Shown here: positions 16,425 to 22,122 of the stretch, piece after piece
Position numbering within the stretch: position 1 is the first letter of the stretch
How the letters are laid out: every line of letters begins with the position of its first letter
Assembly (NCBI RefSeq): GCF_001681715.1
Contig: NZ_LNWY01000016.1
Location: 186,001 to 250,000, forward strand
Direction: 5' to 3'
Length of the DNA stretch: 64,000 nt
DNA from: Tritonibacter mobilis
GTDB taxonomy: Bacteria; Pseudomonadota; Alphaproteobacteria; Rhodobacterales; Rhodobacteraceae
Notes under the pieces: model-generated
Databases searched by the model: none
What the model was told of the DNA's origin: nothing
Seen by the model: the letters and a program-made list of their open reading frames with translations, nothing else
Made by a program: the position numbers and the translations under genes

Positions 16425-16540
16425 ACCTGCGCAAACGGCATCACCAAGGGATGCGCGGAATCGCCCACGCGCGCCCAATTTTTGCCCGAAGCATTGGCTA
16501 GACTGCCGCATGAGGGATGTGGAGAGTGTCTGTGCTGCCG

Positions 16541-17371
16541 ATGAAGCGTTTGATTTTGAGCGGGGTGTTTTGCGCCTTGTCTGCTGCCGCGATGGCGGGC
16601 ACGACCCTGAGCGGGGAGAATACCCGGCTCAAGAGCTTGGAGACCACCGACGCCGGGCGCGATTGGGAGGCGGTTGGGCGTCTGGATCGTAAGGGCGAGG
16701 GGTTTTGCACAGGTGCGTTGATTGCGCCCGACATTGTTTTGACGGCCGCGCATTGCCTTTATGATCGTGACACGATGGAGCAGATCGACCCGACCTCCAT
16801 CGAGTTTCTGGCGGGGTGGCGCAATGGGCGTGCCTCGGCCTATCGCGCGGTAAAACGTGCGGTGCTGCATCCATCTTATGTTTATGATGGCACGTTGTCG
16901 GCAAAACGGGTGCGCAACGACATTGCGTTGCTGCAATTGCAACGCCCCATTCGCAATACCACCGTCACACCGTTTGAAACGGACGCCCGCCCGCGTAAGG
17001 GCGCACGGGTCGGTGTGGTGTCCTACGCGCAGGATCGGTCCGAGGCCCCGTCGCTGCAGGAAGTCTGCATGGTAATCGCCCGTCAGGATGGCGTGCTGGT
17101 GATGTCCTGCGATGTGGATTTCGGCGCGTCCGGCGCACCGGTGTTTTCCTTCGAGGGGGAGCGTCCCCGGATTGTTTCCGTGGTTTCCGCCAAGGCGCGG
17201 GTGGAGGGATCTGCAGTTTCGCTTGGCGCATCACTGGCGGATGAGCTGGCGCTACTGGAGGCACAACTGACAGGTGCCCATGTCGGGAGCCGTATGCCGC
17301 AAGGTGTTGGCCGGGTGCAGGTCGGCGAGCCGCGGCGCAATGATCTCGGCGCAAAATTCATCTCCAATTGA
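16541..17371 (+). CDS. Secreted trypsin-like serine protease
   Basis: A 276-residue exported S1-family protease. I start at MKRLILSGVF because a signal peptide then follows directly (cleavage likely after AMA, about residue 19); an upstream ATG would add eight residues. The catalytic triad is visible: H71 in VLTAAHCL, D127 in RNDIALLQL, and S197 in DFGASGAPVFS. Four cysteines (C56, C72, C176, C190) could form two disulfides. The usual GDSGGP around serine is GASGAP, as in Glu-specific or V8-like relatives. Substrate unknown. Confidence 0.88.
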   Translation: MKRLILSGVFCALSAAAMAGTTLSGENTRLKSLETTDAGRDWEAVGRLDRKGEGFCTGALIAPDIVLTAAHCLYDRDTMEQIDPTSIEFLAGWRNGRASAYRAVKRAVLHPSYVYDGTLSAKRVRNDIALLQLQRPIRNTTVTPFETDARPRKGARVGVVSYAQDRSEAPSLQEVCMVIARQDGVLVMSCDVDFGASGAPVFSFEGERPRIVSVVSAKARVEGSAVSLGASLADELALLEAQLTGAHVGSRMPQGVGRVQVGEPRRNDLGAKFISN

Positions 17372-17381
17372 GCATGAACCT

Positions 17382-17409
17382 CTTGAAACTGCGATGACCC
17401 TTCATAAAT
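17382..17409 (+). promoter_or_regulatory. Predicted RpoH (sigma-32) promoter of the hsp20 gene
   Basis: CTTGAA at 17382-17387 matches the sigma-32 -35 consensus exactly. CTTCATAAAT at 17400-17409 fits the heat-shock -10 region at suitable spacing. A perfect inverted repeat ACCCTTC/GAAGGGT (17397-17403, 17411-17417) overlaps the -10. Confidence 0.65.
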
Positions 17410-17420
17410 CGAAGGGTGTT

Positions 17421-17512
17421 CAGGGCGCCAATGATTGGGCTCTGAGAAAGAACCGCCCGTCCCGTGTTGGGAGGGCTTCATAGCAGTTATCGCTCAAAAA
17501 TGAGGATGAACC
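17421..17512 (+). promoter_or_regulatory. ROSE-type RNA thermometer in the hsp20 leader
   Basis: Three consecutive hairpins fill the leader. 17421-17444 is a 10-bp stem with one bulged G. 17455-17476 pairs GCCC/GGGC and TCCC/GGGA around one bulged G. 17486-17511 pairs the ribosome site TGAGGAT with an upstream anti-site around an AAAA loop. The anti-site contains TCGCT (17490-17494), matching the conserved ROSE motif UYGCU, whose G (17492) is bulged opposite AGGA. ROSE elements hide the ribosome site at low temperature and melt on heat shock, chiefly before small heat-shock genes, exactly as here. Confidence 0.8.
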
Positions 17513-17980
17513 ATGCGTACGTTTGATTTTGCTCCGCTTCACCGCGCAACGGTTGGATTCGACCAGATTGCAGACCTGATGGATCGGGTCATGAGTTCTG
17601 ATATCCAGCAGCCCAGCTACCCCCCTTACAACATCGAGAAGACCTCAGAAGATGCCTATCGCATCTCGATCGCCGTCGCCGGGTTTTCCGAAGACGAGCT
17701 GAACGTCGAGGTGAAGGAACACGCCTTGGTCGTGTCGGCGCGCAAAACCGAAGAGGCTGGCGAGCGCACCTATCTGCATCGCGGTATTGCCACCCGCGCG
17801 TTTGAGCGCCGCTTTACGCTGGCAGATCACGTGCGGGTCGAAGGTGCAAGCCACGCCGACGGTATGCTCCATATCGATCTGGTGCGCGAAGTTCCCGAAG
17901 CGTTGAAACCGCGCCGGATTGAAATCGCATCCGCCGCAGGATCGAAGCCCAAGGAAATCGCGGGCTCGACCGTGAACTGA
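17513..17980 (+). CDS. Small heat shock protein, Hsp20/IbpA family
   Basis: An ATP-independent holdase chaperone of 155 residues. The alpha-crystallin domain runs from about residue 38 to 140 (YNIEKTSEDAYRISIAVAGF, ELNVEVKEHALVVSARK, RTYLHRGIATRAFERRFTL). FERRFTLADHV is typical of the IbpA class. The gene is monocistronic, behind a predicted RpoH promoter and a ROSE-like thermometer, and ends in an intrinsic terminator. Confidence 0.95.
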   Translation: MRTFDFAPLHRATVGFDQIADLMDRVMSSDIQQPSYPPYNIEKTSEDAYRISIAVAGFSEDELNVEVKEHALVVSARKTEEAGERTYLHRGIATRAFERRFTLADHVRVEGASHADGMLHIDLVREVPEALKPRRIEIASAAGSKPKEIAGSTVN

Positions 17981-18015
17981 TCCCTCCCCGGGATGCATCC
18001 GCATCCTGTTTGCAG

Positions 18016-18050
18016 CGCCCCCGGTCTTACGGCTGGGGGCGATTTTATTT
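18016..18050 (+). terminator. Terminator after hsp20
   Basis: CGCCCCC (18016-18022) pairs with GGGGGCG (18035-18041), followed by ATTTTATTT. Confidence 0.85.
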
Positions 18051-18065
18051 GTGGATTTGCGCATC

Positions 18066-18081
18066 CCTACCAATCGGTAGG
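18066..18081. promoter_or_regulatory. Candidate TetR operator
   Basis: A perfect palindrome, CCTACC-AATC-GGTAGG, sits 35 bp upstream of the TetR-family start. Position and size suggest an autoregulatory operator. It is not a terminator, having no T-run. Confidence 0.5.
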
Positions 18082-18116
18082 TTGCCGGCCAAGTGATCAC
18101 CTGCGCTAATGGCGCA

Positions 18117-18719
18117 ATGACATTACGTGATGCGCCATCCAATACCCGCACCCAACTCATTGAAAGCGCGTGCCGCCTGTTTGCGGCGCATGGCTATGCC
18201 GGGGCTTCGATCTCAAGCATCGCCAAAGAGCTGGGCCTGAGCAAGCAGGCGCTGTTGCACCATTTTGGCAGCAAAAACGCGCTCTATTCATTGGCGGTCG
18301 AGCAGGCGGCGGCAGCGGTGCTGCAATTGCTGTTTGATGCCATGGAAGATGATCATCCGCCCGAAGATCAGTTGGCGGCTTTCTTTGCATCCTATCAGCG
18401 GCTCTTGAGCGTAAAGCCCGCCGCCGGGCAGCTCGTGTTGCGTGAACTGCTGGATAATGCGCTGACCACGCAGGAGGGGGGCGCATTTGCCACCTTGCTG
18501 GAAAGCCTGGTCGCAACAGTGCAGGCAACCGAGCGCTGGCAGGGTGCGGGTGCTGCCGGGGCGCTGGCAGTCGTGACGCAGCTGTTGGGGGCTGCGTCAC
18601 TCATGTCATCGGCAGAGAGCTCGCTGAGCGCAAAATTTGGCAGTGCTACTGTGACGAAAGCTCAATCGCACACGGCAGAAATTTCTGCAGAACTGGTCTC
18701 AGGCATTTTGCGCGGGTGA
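18117..18719 (+). CDS. TetR family transcriptional regulator
   Basis: A 200-residue repressor-type protein. The N-terminal helix-turn-helix reads RTQLIESACRLFAAHGYAG and ISSIAKELGLSKQALLHHFG, clear TetR_N. The C-terminal ligand domain is helical and not recognisable by eye. I start at ATG 18117; a GTG at 18093 would add eight residues. No strong ribosome site is seen for either. Its 3' end overlaps the convergent ribN by 21 bp. Target is unknown; the palindrome at 18066 suggests self-control. Confidence 0.9.
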   Translation: MTLRDAPSNTRTQLIESACRLFAAHGYAGASISSIAKELGLSKQALLHHFGSKNALYSLAVEQAAAAVLQLLFDAMEDDHPPEDQLAAFFASYQRLLSVKPAAGQLVLRELLDNALTTQEGGAFATLLESLVATVQATERWQGAGAAGALAVVTQLLGAASLMSSAESSLSAKFGSATVTKAQSHTAEISAELVSGILRG

Positions 18720-19592
18720 TGTTGGGCGGGCGCGGGCCTCCCGGTTCAACAGATAGATGCTGGCCACAAGGATTAGCATGGTGCCGAGCCACATATTCCC
18801 ATCGGGCATAAATCCAAAGACCAGTGCGCCAAGACCGACGTTGAACACCAGTTTCAGGTGGTCAAAGGGCTGCAAAAACGCCGCATCCGCAAGCGTATAG
18901 GCACGCACCAACGTGTGCTGCGCCAATGCGGTCAAAAGCCCGGCCCCGATCACCAACCAAAGCGTGGTTTGTGGCAGGGCAAAGCCGGTGCTGACCGTGA
19001 GCAACGCATTGGCTGGGCTCAGCAATAGCAGTAGGTAAATGGTGACGGTCTCGGTGTTGTCGCGGCGCGTGAGCTGTTTGGTCACTACGGAACTTGCTGC
19101 CCAGAAGGCAGCAGCAGCCACCGGGAGCAGTGCCGCCAGTTGAAACCGGTCCGACCACGGCGCAAGGATCACCATGCCACCGATAATGCCCACGACAACT
19201 GCGCCCCAGCGATGCAGGGAGACCTCTTCGCGCAGGAACAGCCCCGCCCCGATGGTGACAAAGAAGGGCGACAACAGGATCAGCGCAATCGCCTGCCAGA
19301 TCGGCACATGGGCAAGCCCCAGCGTCCAGAGCTGTACGCCGCCCACGGCCAGCGCGACACGCAGCACATGGGAGAGGATCTGTCGGGTCGACAGCACAGC
19401 CGACCGGTTGCGCCAGATCCATGGAATATAAAACAAAAGCGCGATCAGATACTGCCAGAAGGTCACCGTCGGAGCAAAAGCCCCGTGAAGCATGGTGGCC
19501 GATTGCAGTGCGGTGTTGACCAGCGCGAAACAGGCTCCGGCGATGACCATGAGGCCAGCCGCCTTGAGCGGGGTGGGGCGCGTTTGAGCCAT
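18699..19592 (-). CDS. ribN: Riboflavin transporter RibN (DMT/EamA family)
   Basis: A 297-residue protein with ten hydrophobic helices in two EamA repeats (for example GLMVIAGACFALVNTALQS and AAAFWAASSVVTKQLTR). By itself it is a generic drug/metabolite transporter. The FMN riboswitch in its leader points to riboflavin uptake, as in the RibN group known from rhizobia and other proteobacteria. I start at ATG 19592 (MAQTRPTPLK) after AAAGGACGA; the same frame stays open upstream only through the riboswitch and is not coding. Substrate is inferred from regulation, strongly. Confidence 0.88.
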   Translation of the reverse strand: MAQTRPTPLKAAGLMVIAGACFALVNTALQSATMLHGAFAPTVTFWQYLIALLFYIPWIWRNRSAVLSTRQILSHVLRVALAVGGVQLWTLGLAHVPIWQAIALILLSPFFVTIGAGLFLREEVSLHRWGAVVVGIIGGMVILAPWSDRFQLAALLPVAAAAFWAASSVVTKQLTRRDNTETVTIYLLLLLSPANALLTVSTGFALPQTTLWLVIGAGLLTALAQHTLVRAYTLADAAFLQPFDHLKLVFNVGLGALVFGFMPDGNMWLGTMLILVASIYLLNREARARPTSPAQNA

Positions 19593-19685
19593 CTGCGTGT
19601 CGTCCTTTCCTCGGTACGCATGTGACCCAAGGCAGACGAACAGACCCGGTGCCGCCTCCTGATTGGGGGCGGTGCGGGGCTCTCC

Positions 19686-19812
19686 ATTCTCTTCCATCCG
19701 GACTATGACCGTCGGCCCCGGAATTGCGCCGGGTCTGCTGACACCTTTGCAAAAGCAAAGGCCGCTCGTGGGCTGTGACCACCGGTAGGGAATTTCACCC
19801 TGCCCTGAGAAT
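19686..19812 (-). promoter_or_regulatory. FMN riboswitch (RFN element) controlling ribN
   Basis: On the minus strand the conserved blocks run in order: CAGGGCAGGGTGAAATTCCC, TACCGGTGGT, GCCCACGAGC, a variable hairpin CCTTTGC/GCAAAGG, GTCAGCAGACCCGG, GGGGCCGACGGTCATAGTC and CGGATGGAAGAGAAT. The closing helix P1 pairs ATTCTC (plus 19807-19812) with GAGAAT (plus 19686-19691). About 90 nt separate it from the ribN start. I see no T-run terminator there, so control of translation is more likely than attenuation. Confidence 0.96.
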
Positions 19813-19887
19813 ATCACCTCACTTTCATGAGGTGCCAAAGACATAGCTAAGCTGACCGGCAAAGAAAAGCATCCCGTGCATAACGTG

Positions 19888-19915
19888 AAAGAGGCCCCCG
19901 TTTGGAGGCCTCTTT
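19888..19915 (-). terminator. Terminator after the phytase-like gene
   Basis: AAAGAGGCC and GGCCTCTTT pair across a 10-nt loop. With A and T runs at the ends it can act in both directions; it lies just beyond the stop at 19951 and ahead of the riboswitch. Confidence 0.85.
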
Positions 19916-19950
19916 GCGTGGTCGGAATGTCGGCTGAATGGGCGAGCGGG

Positions 19951-22122
19951 TTACTCGACCTTGAAGGACCAGAACATGGTCTCGCCAGAGCTGTCATCGA
20001 CGCCGTCGTTGTCGGTGGCAACCCATGCGGTGCCATCTGCCATGATAGCCAGCCCCTCGACCTTATCGAGGACATAACCGCCGGTGGATTTCAGATCGGG
20101 CAGCAGGTCGCGGACCTCTTCCTTGGTCACGACAGGCAACTCGCCACCGAGCGGAGCAGGGGTCATTTCAGACAGGGCAACGCGGTAGATCTTCTTGGTG
20201 ACTGCGCGATCATCGTGCTGGTTGTCACGCTCGACGATGTAGACATAGTCGCCATGTGCCACGATCTCGGACAGACCGACCCAACCGGTTGCTGGCTCAG
20301 TCTTGGGATAATGAACCGCTCCCCACTCTTTGGTTTCCAGGTTGTAGGACACCAGTTTTACAAGGTTTTTGGGGTCGTCTTTCCACTCACGCTGCACCGG
20401 CATCCAAAGCGTGTTGCCAACCTTGGTGATGCCTTCGAACCCAAAGCGTTTTTCCACCGCTTGCAGTTTTGCCGGGATGGTGATTTCGCCTTTGTTGGTC
20501 TTGATCAGACCATCAGCGCTGACGTGATAGATCGCATGTGGAATGGCACGCTCCGTGCGGCCTTCGGACGCCACGTAAAAGCCGCCCTTGCCGTCCAATG
20601 TGATGCCTTCGAGGTCGAGCTTTTGAGCGGCATCGCCATTGGCGCGGTGGATGCGGATCACATCGGTGATGCGCGCCGGGGTCTGCGACGGGTCGATTTT
20701 AAAGATGGAGGGCTGGAAGCCATAGAAGCTGTCGTTGACAGCCCAGATCATGCCGTCTTCATCGGCGACCATGCCCGAGATTGCACCCCAGCCGATCAAT
20801 TCATCAGCGCCCGCAGAGGTCAGATGCGGATAGACCGGCGCGCCATCCTGACGTTCGAACAGCATCACATGCGCCCGCGCGCCGCCATCCTCAATGAGGT
20901 CTTTTTCATTAGCGGAGACCAGCAGGCCGCGCTCTGGAATAGTGACATAGCCCTCGGGGCCGGTGCCCGACGGGAGCAGCTGGGTCAGAACCGGGTTGGC
21001 CGGGTCGGTCACGTCATAGACCCCCACGACCGAGGCGCGCTCGGCTCCGACAAAGACATAGGGCGTGCCGTCGAATTCGGCGAAGGTCACGGATTCAGGT
21101 TCCACGCCTTTGGCATCGGAACGTTTGTCCGGATAGTGGCCGATCTGAATGATGGCATGTTCGAAATCGACGCCGGAATCGTACACGAGCGTGCCATCTT
21201 TGTTGAAGATGCTCCAGCCACGCGAGCCGCCGTTGTAATCGCCTTCGTTGGCGATGGCGAAATGCTCATCATCAATCCATGTCACCGCATCGGGTTCGCG
21301 CAGGCGGCCCTGCTGGCTCTCGGTGAAGATCAGCGCGCCGCGCTCATCCGTGGCGTCGATCCCGTCGAGATCAACAGACCCGGCGGAGAAATGGTTCAGG
21401 ATCTCTCCCTCTTTGGAGACAACGACCAGATGGTTGTTTTCCTGCAAGGTCACCACGGTTTCGCCAAGGCCGTTGATCGAAACATACTCGGGCTCGGGGT
21501 CGGACCCGGCGATGTCAGCAAGCCCGGTCAGGTCGACCATCTTCATGCTGGAGCAATCAAGGCCACCTTCGGTGGTGTTGACCATCACCAGATTGCCCGC
21601 TGGCATCTGCGGGATGACGCCGTCGTTCAGGTCCTCGTCGCGTTCATTTTCGATCGCGATAGACAGGAAGGAACCGTCTTTGGCCTTGGCAACAGAGTCC
21701 GGCTGACCGCCGAGATCGCAGGAGGCAAGTTCCTTGCCGGTGGTCGTGTCAAAGGCCATGAACTGGCCGGAGGGCTGGGTGTAGCTCTCGGAGGTGTTGA
21801 CGCCCACATAGGCGATGGTGCCGATGACCGCGACAGAGGTCGGCTCACCCGGCAGAGCGATGTTGCCCTTAGGGATCGGGCTGGCGGCGTCGGTAATGTC
21901 GATCATGCCGAGTACCCCGAGCGGGCTGTCGGTATAAACCAGTGTCATGCCATCTGCAGTGACGTCGATGATCTCTGGCGAGCTTTCACGGGTTTGGTCG
22001 TCGCCTTCGGCCATGTTCTTGATGACGGGGAAGGACGCGATCCGGTTAAAGGATTTTTCAGCCTGCGCCAAACCAGCGGTCAGCGCGAGGGCAGAAGTCA
22101 GGCACACAAGGCGCAGGGACAT
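19951..22122 (-). CDS. Secreted phytase-like/esterase-like beta-propeller protein
   Basis: A 723-residue exported protein. I start at ATG 22122 (MSLRLVCLTSALALTAGLAQA), which gives a perfect signal peptide and follows ACAGGAGCTG; a longer frame to 22305 lacks both. The C-terminal ~350 residues fit the esterase-like activity of phytase family (GISGMVADEDGMIWAVNDSF-type text, DLEGITLDGKGGFYVASEG, RFGFEGITKVGNTLW). The N-terminal half looks like a second propeller (SPEIIDVTADGMTLVYTDS). Likely periplasmic; substrate unknown, possibly organophosphate. Confidence 0.85.
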   Translation of the reverse strand: MSLRLVCLTSALALTAGLAQAEKSFNRIASFPVIKNMAEGDDQTRESSPEIIDVTADGMTLVYTDSPLGVLGMIDITDAASPIPKGNIALPGEPTSVAVIGTIAYVGVNTSESYTQPSGQFMAFDTTTGKELASCDLGGQPDSVAKAKDGSFLSIAIENERDEDLNDGVIPQMPAGNLVMVNTTEGGLDCSSMKMVDLTGLADIAGSDPEPEYVSINGLGETVVTLQENNHLVVVSKEGEILNHFSAGSVDLDGIDATDERGALIFTESQQGRLREPDAVTWIDDEHFAIANEGDYNGGSRGWSIFNKDGTLVYDSGVDFEHAIIQIGHYPDKRSDAKGVEPESVTFAEFDGTPYVFVGAERASVVGVYDVTDPANPVLTQLLPSGTGPEGYVTIPERGLLVSANEKDLIEDGGARAHVMLFERQDGAPVYPHLTSAGADELIGWGAISGMVADEDGMIWAVNDSFYGFQPSIFKIDPSQTPARITDVIRIHRANGDAAQKLDLEGITLDGKGGFYVASEGRTERAIPHAIYHVSADGLIKTNKGEITIPAKLQAVEKRFGFEGITKVGNTLWMPVQREWKDDPKNLVKLVSYNLETKEWGAVHYPKTEPATGWVGLSEIVAHGDYVYIVERDNQHDDRAVTKKIYRVALSEMTPAPLGGELPVVTKEEVRDLLPDLKSTGGYVLDKVEGLAIMADGTAWVATDNDGVDDSSGETMFWSFKVE

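Follow-up and report, generated by a model that had tools for sequence, protein, structure and literature searches.

The DNA upstream of the small heat-shock gene hsp20 in Tritonibacter mobilis raises the question of whether the gene is under heat control only when it is transcribed, or also when its message is translated. From sequence comparison and computed folds, we consider it very likely that positions 17382–17512 of the stretch analysed here (64,000 nucleotides, referred to throughout as the window) comprise a promoter dependent on RpoH and, 3' of it, a ROSE-like RNA thermometer of hsp20 with three hairpins. The number of ROSE elements reported from alpha- and gammaproteobacteria exceeds 40, a figure that the available text of PMC4166951 takes from Waldminghaus et al. 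(2005). Elements that have been tested show a U[C/U]GCU pairing with a bulged G (portions of PMC3669281 and PMC11342760), and one such element responds less strongly to heat once its bulged G is deleted, as an excerpt of PMC11342760 describes.

The hsp20 locus and its relatives

The hsp20 product was identified by its PF00011 match (E 2.4e-19 in a profile search), and its closest named relative is found in Tritonibacter horizontis (89%, in a search of named genomes), within the Roseobacter group. The gene and the feature that follows it are located as given below.

17513–17980, + strand: hsp20, the controlled gene, a small heat-shock protein of 155 aa (ATG at 17513; PF00011)
18016–18041, + strand: terminator-like hairpin with a T-rich tail, 3' of hsp20 (one found against 0.7 expected in shuffles, which is weak)

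The terminator-like hairpin sits between hsp20 and a TetR-type regulator frame at 18093, and is weakly consistent with a single-gene hsp20 transcript. On the other side, a trypsin-like protease gene (16517–17371, + strand) stops 11 bases 5' of the hsp20 −35 box. In 100 of the 117 leaders described below, a loosely defined GAKF-like pattern was seen in a frame upstream of hsp20, counted without a chance control, and the protease-gene neighbourhood of hsp20 may be conserved. Further along the window, an FMN riboswitch (RF00050, 114.2 bits) lies at 19682–19816 on the minus strand, within a mechanically called open reading frame (18699–20075, minus strand) that encodes an EamA transporter in its later part. 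The true start of that frame is probably downstream of the riboswitch, and control by an FMN riboswitch suggests that the EamA carrier is a riboflavin importer of the RibN type.

Relatives were used to assess conservation. A match to the Hsp20 protein is present in 292 of 295 genomes of the family, and leaders were gathered from a minority of these, starting from the best-scoring protein matches, so that the sample leans to close relatives. In total 125 hsp20 leaders were collected (the window's own, 16 from the genus, and a further 28 and 80 from relatives); removal of eight duplicates left 117 distinct leaders.

An RpoH-type promoter precedes the leader

The RpoH1 promoter of Sinorhizobium meliloti is given in the consulted part of PMC4843759 as CTTGAA-N15–16-CCTATAT. 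The corresponding features in the window are as follows.

17382–17387, + strand: −35 box CTTGAA of RpoH type, an exact match equal to the S. meliloti RpoH1 −35 (PMC4843759)
17403–17409, + strand: −10 element CATAAAT after a spacer of 15, with five of the seven letters of CCTATAT
17415–17418, + strand: predicted transcript start, deduced from the −10 element
17397–17417, + strand: predicted hairpin that overlaps the −10 element, assigned to the promoter region and placed outside the thermometer

The first-pass annotation, which was made from the sequence alone, had proposed an RpoH promoter with an exact sigma-32 −35 box. The box and the spacer stand, but the −10 element agrees at only five of seven letters with the S. 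meliloti form; taken alone it is weak and scores like shuffled DNA. RpoH would be expected to drive this promoter. A [CGT]TTGA[ACT] box is found 117–155 nucleotides 5' of the start codon in all 117 leaders, with CTTGAA itself in 94, and by chance in 183 of 2,340 shuffled segments when 60 bases were searched. An initial promoter scan had picked TTCATAA (spacer 13, four of seven letters) as the −10 of the window, and a later scan narrowed the spacer to 14–17. The −10 sequences have the shape C-C-Y-A-n-n-T, with C at the first base in 113 of the 117 leaders, A at the fourth in 116 and T at the seventh in 116, although these counts lean toward the imposed CCCATNT because of the narrowed spacer range. 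Scored against CCCATNT (N always counted), 87 of the 117 leaders reach 6 or 7 of 7, with shuffles at about 3.6.

The pattern CTTGAAN13–17CMYATNT has no match within the 64-kb window, as the window's own −10 differs from it at one fixed letter, and no sigma-70-type promoter was found in 17200–18100. One protein of the genome exceeds the cut-off of the RpoH model TIGR02392 (368.6 bits against 323.1); two others fall below it, at 274.6 and 143.6 bits, and the former is perhaps a second RpoH.

The leader is predicted to fold into three hairpins

Three leader hairpins, with the last one pairing the ribosome site to TCGCT around a bulged G, had been claimed in the first-pass annotation, and the folds computed here recover this arrangement.

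17419–17446, + strand: hairpin A, with bulged G17427 on the 5' arm (folds; covariation)
17455–17476, + strand: hairpin B, GCCYGUCC..GGARGGC, with bulged G17459 (folds; covariation)
17489–17507, + strand: sensor hairpin, UCGCU (17490–17494) against AGGA (17503–17506), with bulged G17492 (folds; conserved motif)
17503–17506, + strand: ribosome site AGGA, within the sensor hairpin (sequence and computed accessibility)

All three hairpins begin 3' of the predicted transcript start, and in each of the three folds computed for the leader UCGCU is paired with AGGA and G17492 is unpaired. In fact, each of the three hairpins has an unpaired G in its 5' arm, which is kept in 117 (A), 110 (B) and 117 (sensor) of the 117 leaders. 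The hairpin at 17397–17417 would not be transcribed whole, because the −10 element overlaps it. This has a consequence for folding energy, for which a z of −2.97 was obtained over 134 nucleotides that include this hairpin. Restricting the fold to the stretch between the predicted start of transcription and +23 leaves a value of only −1.37, with 18 of 200 shuffles doing as well; given this drop, and a z of −0.04 for the leader of the second hsp20 copy, folding energy was discarded as evidence for a thermometer.

Both fourU and ROSE-G thermometers place a terminal hairpin over the ribosome site, as is seen here, and AGGA is likewise paired in the terminal hairpin. A fourU-type thermometer in place of a ROSE element would therefore fit the position of the hairpin, but the strand facing AGGA reads UC[G]CU, without a four-U run, and UCGCU or UUGCU occupies this place in every one of the 117 leaders. 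We regard the fourU assignment as refuted by sequence and give it next to no credence. ROSE-G elements carry an opposing bulged G in the ribosome site, according to the available text of PMC12857270, and this is absent here. The leader instead has the features by which ROSE-like elements are described in the consulted portions of PMC3669281, PMC4166951 and PMC11342760: U(U/C)GCU imperfectly paired to the ribosome site in the 3'-most hairpin with one G bulged, a leader of two to four hairpins (three, counted from the predicted transcript start), and a position before a small heat-shock gene, in this case hsp20.

Conservation and covariation among relatives

A motif U[C/U]GCU..AGGA is present 5' of the start codon in all 117 leaders, as UCGCU in 111 and UUGCU in six. 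When the last 45 bases were shuffled it appeared in 2 of 5,850 sequences, using gap limits of 4–10 and 4–12, which cover the observed gaps. On a plain MAFFT alignment of the 117 leaders (A1), the proposed structure has 91.2% of cells paired, compared to 81.7% for column shuffles and 39.8–56.7% when the arms are slid, although it is favoured over the slid versions because it was drawn from one of the aligned sequences. Changes on both sides of a pair are seen in 18 of 27 pairs and in 342 cells, where shuffles give 12.3 pairs and 120.5 cells. The column shuffles, in which the 3' letters are dealt anew, keep the kinship among leaders, so these pairing figures should not be read as probabilities.

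Compensatory changes in the leaders of relatives had been suggested as a check, and they are found in the two upstream hairpins but hardly in the sensor. Hairpin A has both-side changes in 10 of its 12 pairs and 82.9% of its cells paired, its innermost two pairs being formed in fewer than half of the 117 leaders. Hairpin B shows such changes in six of eight pairs, one of which is divided between C-G (57 leaders) and U-A (52), with 96.9% of cells paired. The sensor hairpin is paired in 98.4% of cells and has both-side changes in only two of seven pairs; it is nearly invariant because its sequence must match the ribosome site, and the sensor pairing therefore rests on conservation and analogy. 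Read from the alignment, covariation speaks much more strongly for hairpins A and B than for the putative thermometer step, and the invariant anti-Shine–Dalgarno strand could be kept for some other reason.

These data also bear on whether the conserved signal lies in the DNA. An inverted-repeat operator for a heat-shock repressor, covering about 17397–17447 and producing the RNA fold as a by-product, would account for the inverted repeat at 17397–17417 that overlaps the −10 element, and ROSE was originally taken for a transcription-factor binding site (as recounted in an excerpt of PMC4166951). Hairpins A and B nonetheless stay paired despite changes in their letters, unlike an operator, and in a rough test no more than 4 of 117 leaders had a 6-bp inverted repeat at the position corresponding to 17397–17417. 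We consider an operator very improbable, and favour an RNA element.

Beside the sensor, a lower stem (GGU/ACC, GUU/AAC) with one bulged base is paired in 25 of 110 leaders, where shuffles give 11.9 and at most 20. The same stem without a bulge gave 20 against 16.6, and with two bulges 3 against 6.5; seven of the 117 leaders did not fit the pattern and were left out of the count. This lower stem is at best a feature of a clade.

Relation to catalogued ROSE elements

A search with the Rfam ROSE models RF00435 and RF01832 had been put forward as the way to check the element, and it came back negative. At gathering score neither model finds a ROSE element in the 64-kb window, and there is no match at E<=10 in 17200–17700. 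A varied selection of 20 loci, 17 from this gene and three from the second copy, likewise gave no Rfam ROSE match at E<=1. The match of a plant-virus pseudoknot family in 17200–17700 (13 bases, E 1.8) was taken as chance. Across 149 genomes of the family, RF00435 passes its cut-off in one, at positions 1501–1592 of a locus (L139, genome G118) where the match precedes a frame (1568–2155) whose Hsp20 match is weak (E 5.9e-4); this RF00435-type element perhaps came from outside the family.

A covariance model, R1, was made from A1 alone. In the whole genome it gives 78.7 bits for the window's leader (E 9.4e-16, R1 E-values being rough), and its next match has an E of 1.3 and lies at a locus without hsp20 (L149). 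R1 recovers nine of the nine loci found by RF00435 in two genome samples, with rough E-values of 3e-11 to 0.0012 in 134,466 bases. One of these loci is from the family sample and eight are from the class sample; two are over the Rfam cut-off and seven are below it. This recovery indicates homology between the hsp20 leader and catalogued ROSE elements. The original proposal of a ROSE-type element is thus well supported at the level of sequence comparison, by the pairing, the bulged G, the conserved upstream hairpins and the reach of R1.

Of the 289 class genomes searched, 64 have an R1 match at E<=0.01 (four of them in the window's family) and 58 at E<=0.001; with RF00435 there are eight at E<=0.001, and one over the cut-off. 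We inspected 29 R1 loci from the stronger matches besides the window's own, three of them in the family, and at all 29 an Hsp20 match starts between −10 and +60 bases from the end of the R1 match, on the same strand. At one class locus (L176), Hsp20 matches lie on both sides of the ROSE-like leader (about 1122–1229 and 1596–2024), perhaps as two hsp20 copies in tandem.

The consensus of RF00435 resembles the hsp20 leader in its first hairpin, which like hairpin A ends in CC/GG preceded by one bulged G, in the presence of a middle hairpin, and in a terminal U[U/C]GCU set against the ribosome site 5' of hsp20. It differs in two respects. The middle hairpin of the hsp20 leader is GCCYGUCC..GGARGGC with a bulged G, and the sensor core has about seven pairs with UCGCU; in the RF00435 consensus the sensor extends to 16 pairs, running through CCAUGUUGCUC..GGAGGAUAUGG and beyond.

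Computed accessibility of the ribosome site

We also see that the ribosome site is closed in the calculation. For the window's leader, the probability that AGGA is fully open rises 31-fold, from 1.3e-5 at 20 °C to 3.9e-4 at 42 °C, and is still small; the energy model gives only slight opening of AGGA at 42–50 °C. Such energy calculations understate the melting of ROSE elements that have been tested. Three of 22 control starts in the window were computed to be more closed than the AGGA of hsp20, these controls being mechanical open reading frames unconfirmed as genes. Among relatives, AGGA is more closed than the median of the leader's own shuffles in 110 of 117 leaders, with a median 42/25 °C ratio of 20, and the closure of the median real leader is matched by 10% of the shuffled ones. 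Closure of the start codon was considered as a possible ROSE feature, and the AUG was computed to be half open (median 0.42).

The small computed opening at 42 °C, together with the nearly invariant sensor stem, would suit a plain inhibitory leader, in which the ribosome site is hidden at every relevant temperature until a ribosome, a small RNA or Hfq opens it, and RpoH alone exerts heat control. That reading sits poorly with the bulged-G U[C/U]GCU pairing, which is characteristic of tested ROSE elements (consulted portions of PMC3669281 and PMC11342760), is present in 117 of 117 leaders, and precedes hsp20 at 29 of the 29 class loci inspected. We judge a purely inhibitory leader to be improbable, and retain the ROSE-like thermometer as the preferred reading.

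A second hsp20 copy has a two-hairpin leader

The genome carries a second hsp20 (G000:C56:319080-319487, minus strand, GTG start), with a leader match at 319490–319553. Its leader has hairpin A and the sensor, without hairpin B, and so appears as a two-hairpin version of the ROSE-like element; its folding energy is ordinary. Forty-three leaders of this copy were gathered, and 42 remained after removal of one duplicate; in A2, two of these 42 references (L020 and L024) were lengthened by hand. U[C/U]GCU..AGG[A/G] is present in all 42, and the bulged Gs of the two hairpins in 41 and 42. In the proposed structure 87.6% of cells are paired (shuffles, 83.5%), and 7 of 15 pairs show both-side changes (shuffles, 3.6).

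A promoter of the form CTTGNN-N15–17-CCCAT (or CCATAT) precedes 41 of the 42 leaders. In these 41 promoters the −35 box is CTTGTG (16), CTTGCG (13), CTTGCA (9) or CTTGTT (3), and never CTTGAA. The model R2 finds the second hsp20 leader in its own genome with an E of 2.1e-13, followed by 19 matches with an E of 0.06 or more; the top two among the 19 (L213 and L214) mainly cover a part like hairpin A, and were taken as chance.

Discussion

Overall, the data are consistent with heat control of hsp20 at both transcription and translation, the latter by analogy with tested ROSE elements. On heat shock, RpoH would transcribe the hsp20 leader. At normal temperature UCGCU would hold AGGA in the last hairpin, with the bulged G weakening the helix, and warming would melt this sensor and allow translation to start, as in the tested elements. 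The two upstream hairpins, in which shape is better conserved than sequence, probably aid the folding of the leader.

A layout of this kind has been described for Pseudomonas ibpA, where short ROSE-like thermometers combine a U(U/C)GCU sensor with a sigma-32 promoter, as here (consulted part of PMC3669281). Compared by hairpin number, those leaders have two, like that of the second hsp20 copy, and the element in the window has three.

The first-pass annotation regarded a ROSE element in a Roseobacter-type genome as worth recording. A Roseobacter case is not new: in 2011, ROSE-like motifs were stated to be recognisable 5' of ibpA and hspD in Nautella sp. R11 (PMC3230580), likewise a Roseobacter and likewise with two small heat-shock genes, so that the hsp20 element is a further case of a known kind. 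The Nautella elements are probably the same two as those of this genome. In the available text of PMC3230580 the report is a single sentence, without sequence, structure or comparison, and a sequence-level description of Roseobacter ROSE elements was not found in the literature searched, which covered few subscription papers. In short, ROSE-like elements before the small heat-shock genes of a Roseobacter had already been reported, and what is new is the family-wide alignment, the covariation, a working model and a measured gap in Rfam coverage.

A broader scheme can be drawn from these data, which we offer as speculative and, taken as a whole, unlikely. It would have a class-wide ROSE lineage, mostly missed by Rfam, with a bulged G on the 5' arm of each hairpin and with 5' hairpins that join in the temperature response and are no mere scaffold, in which the three-hairpin and two-hairpin copies behind different RpoH-type −35 boxes provide two heat-shock set points.

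The present findings indicate that a ROSE element before hsp20 is a general feature of the family, backed by covariation, that also occurs in many other Alphaproteobacteria. As the public ROSE model recovers few of these elements, a better model would annotate many genes that are likely to be controlled by heat. The occurrence of a three-hairpin and a two-hairpin form within one genome offers a ready comparison for the role of the upstream hairpins.
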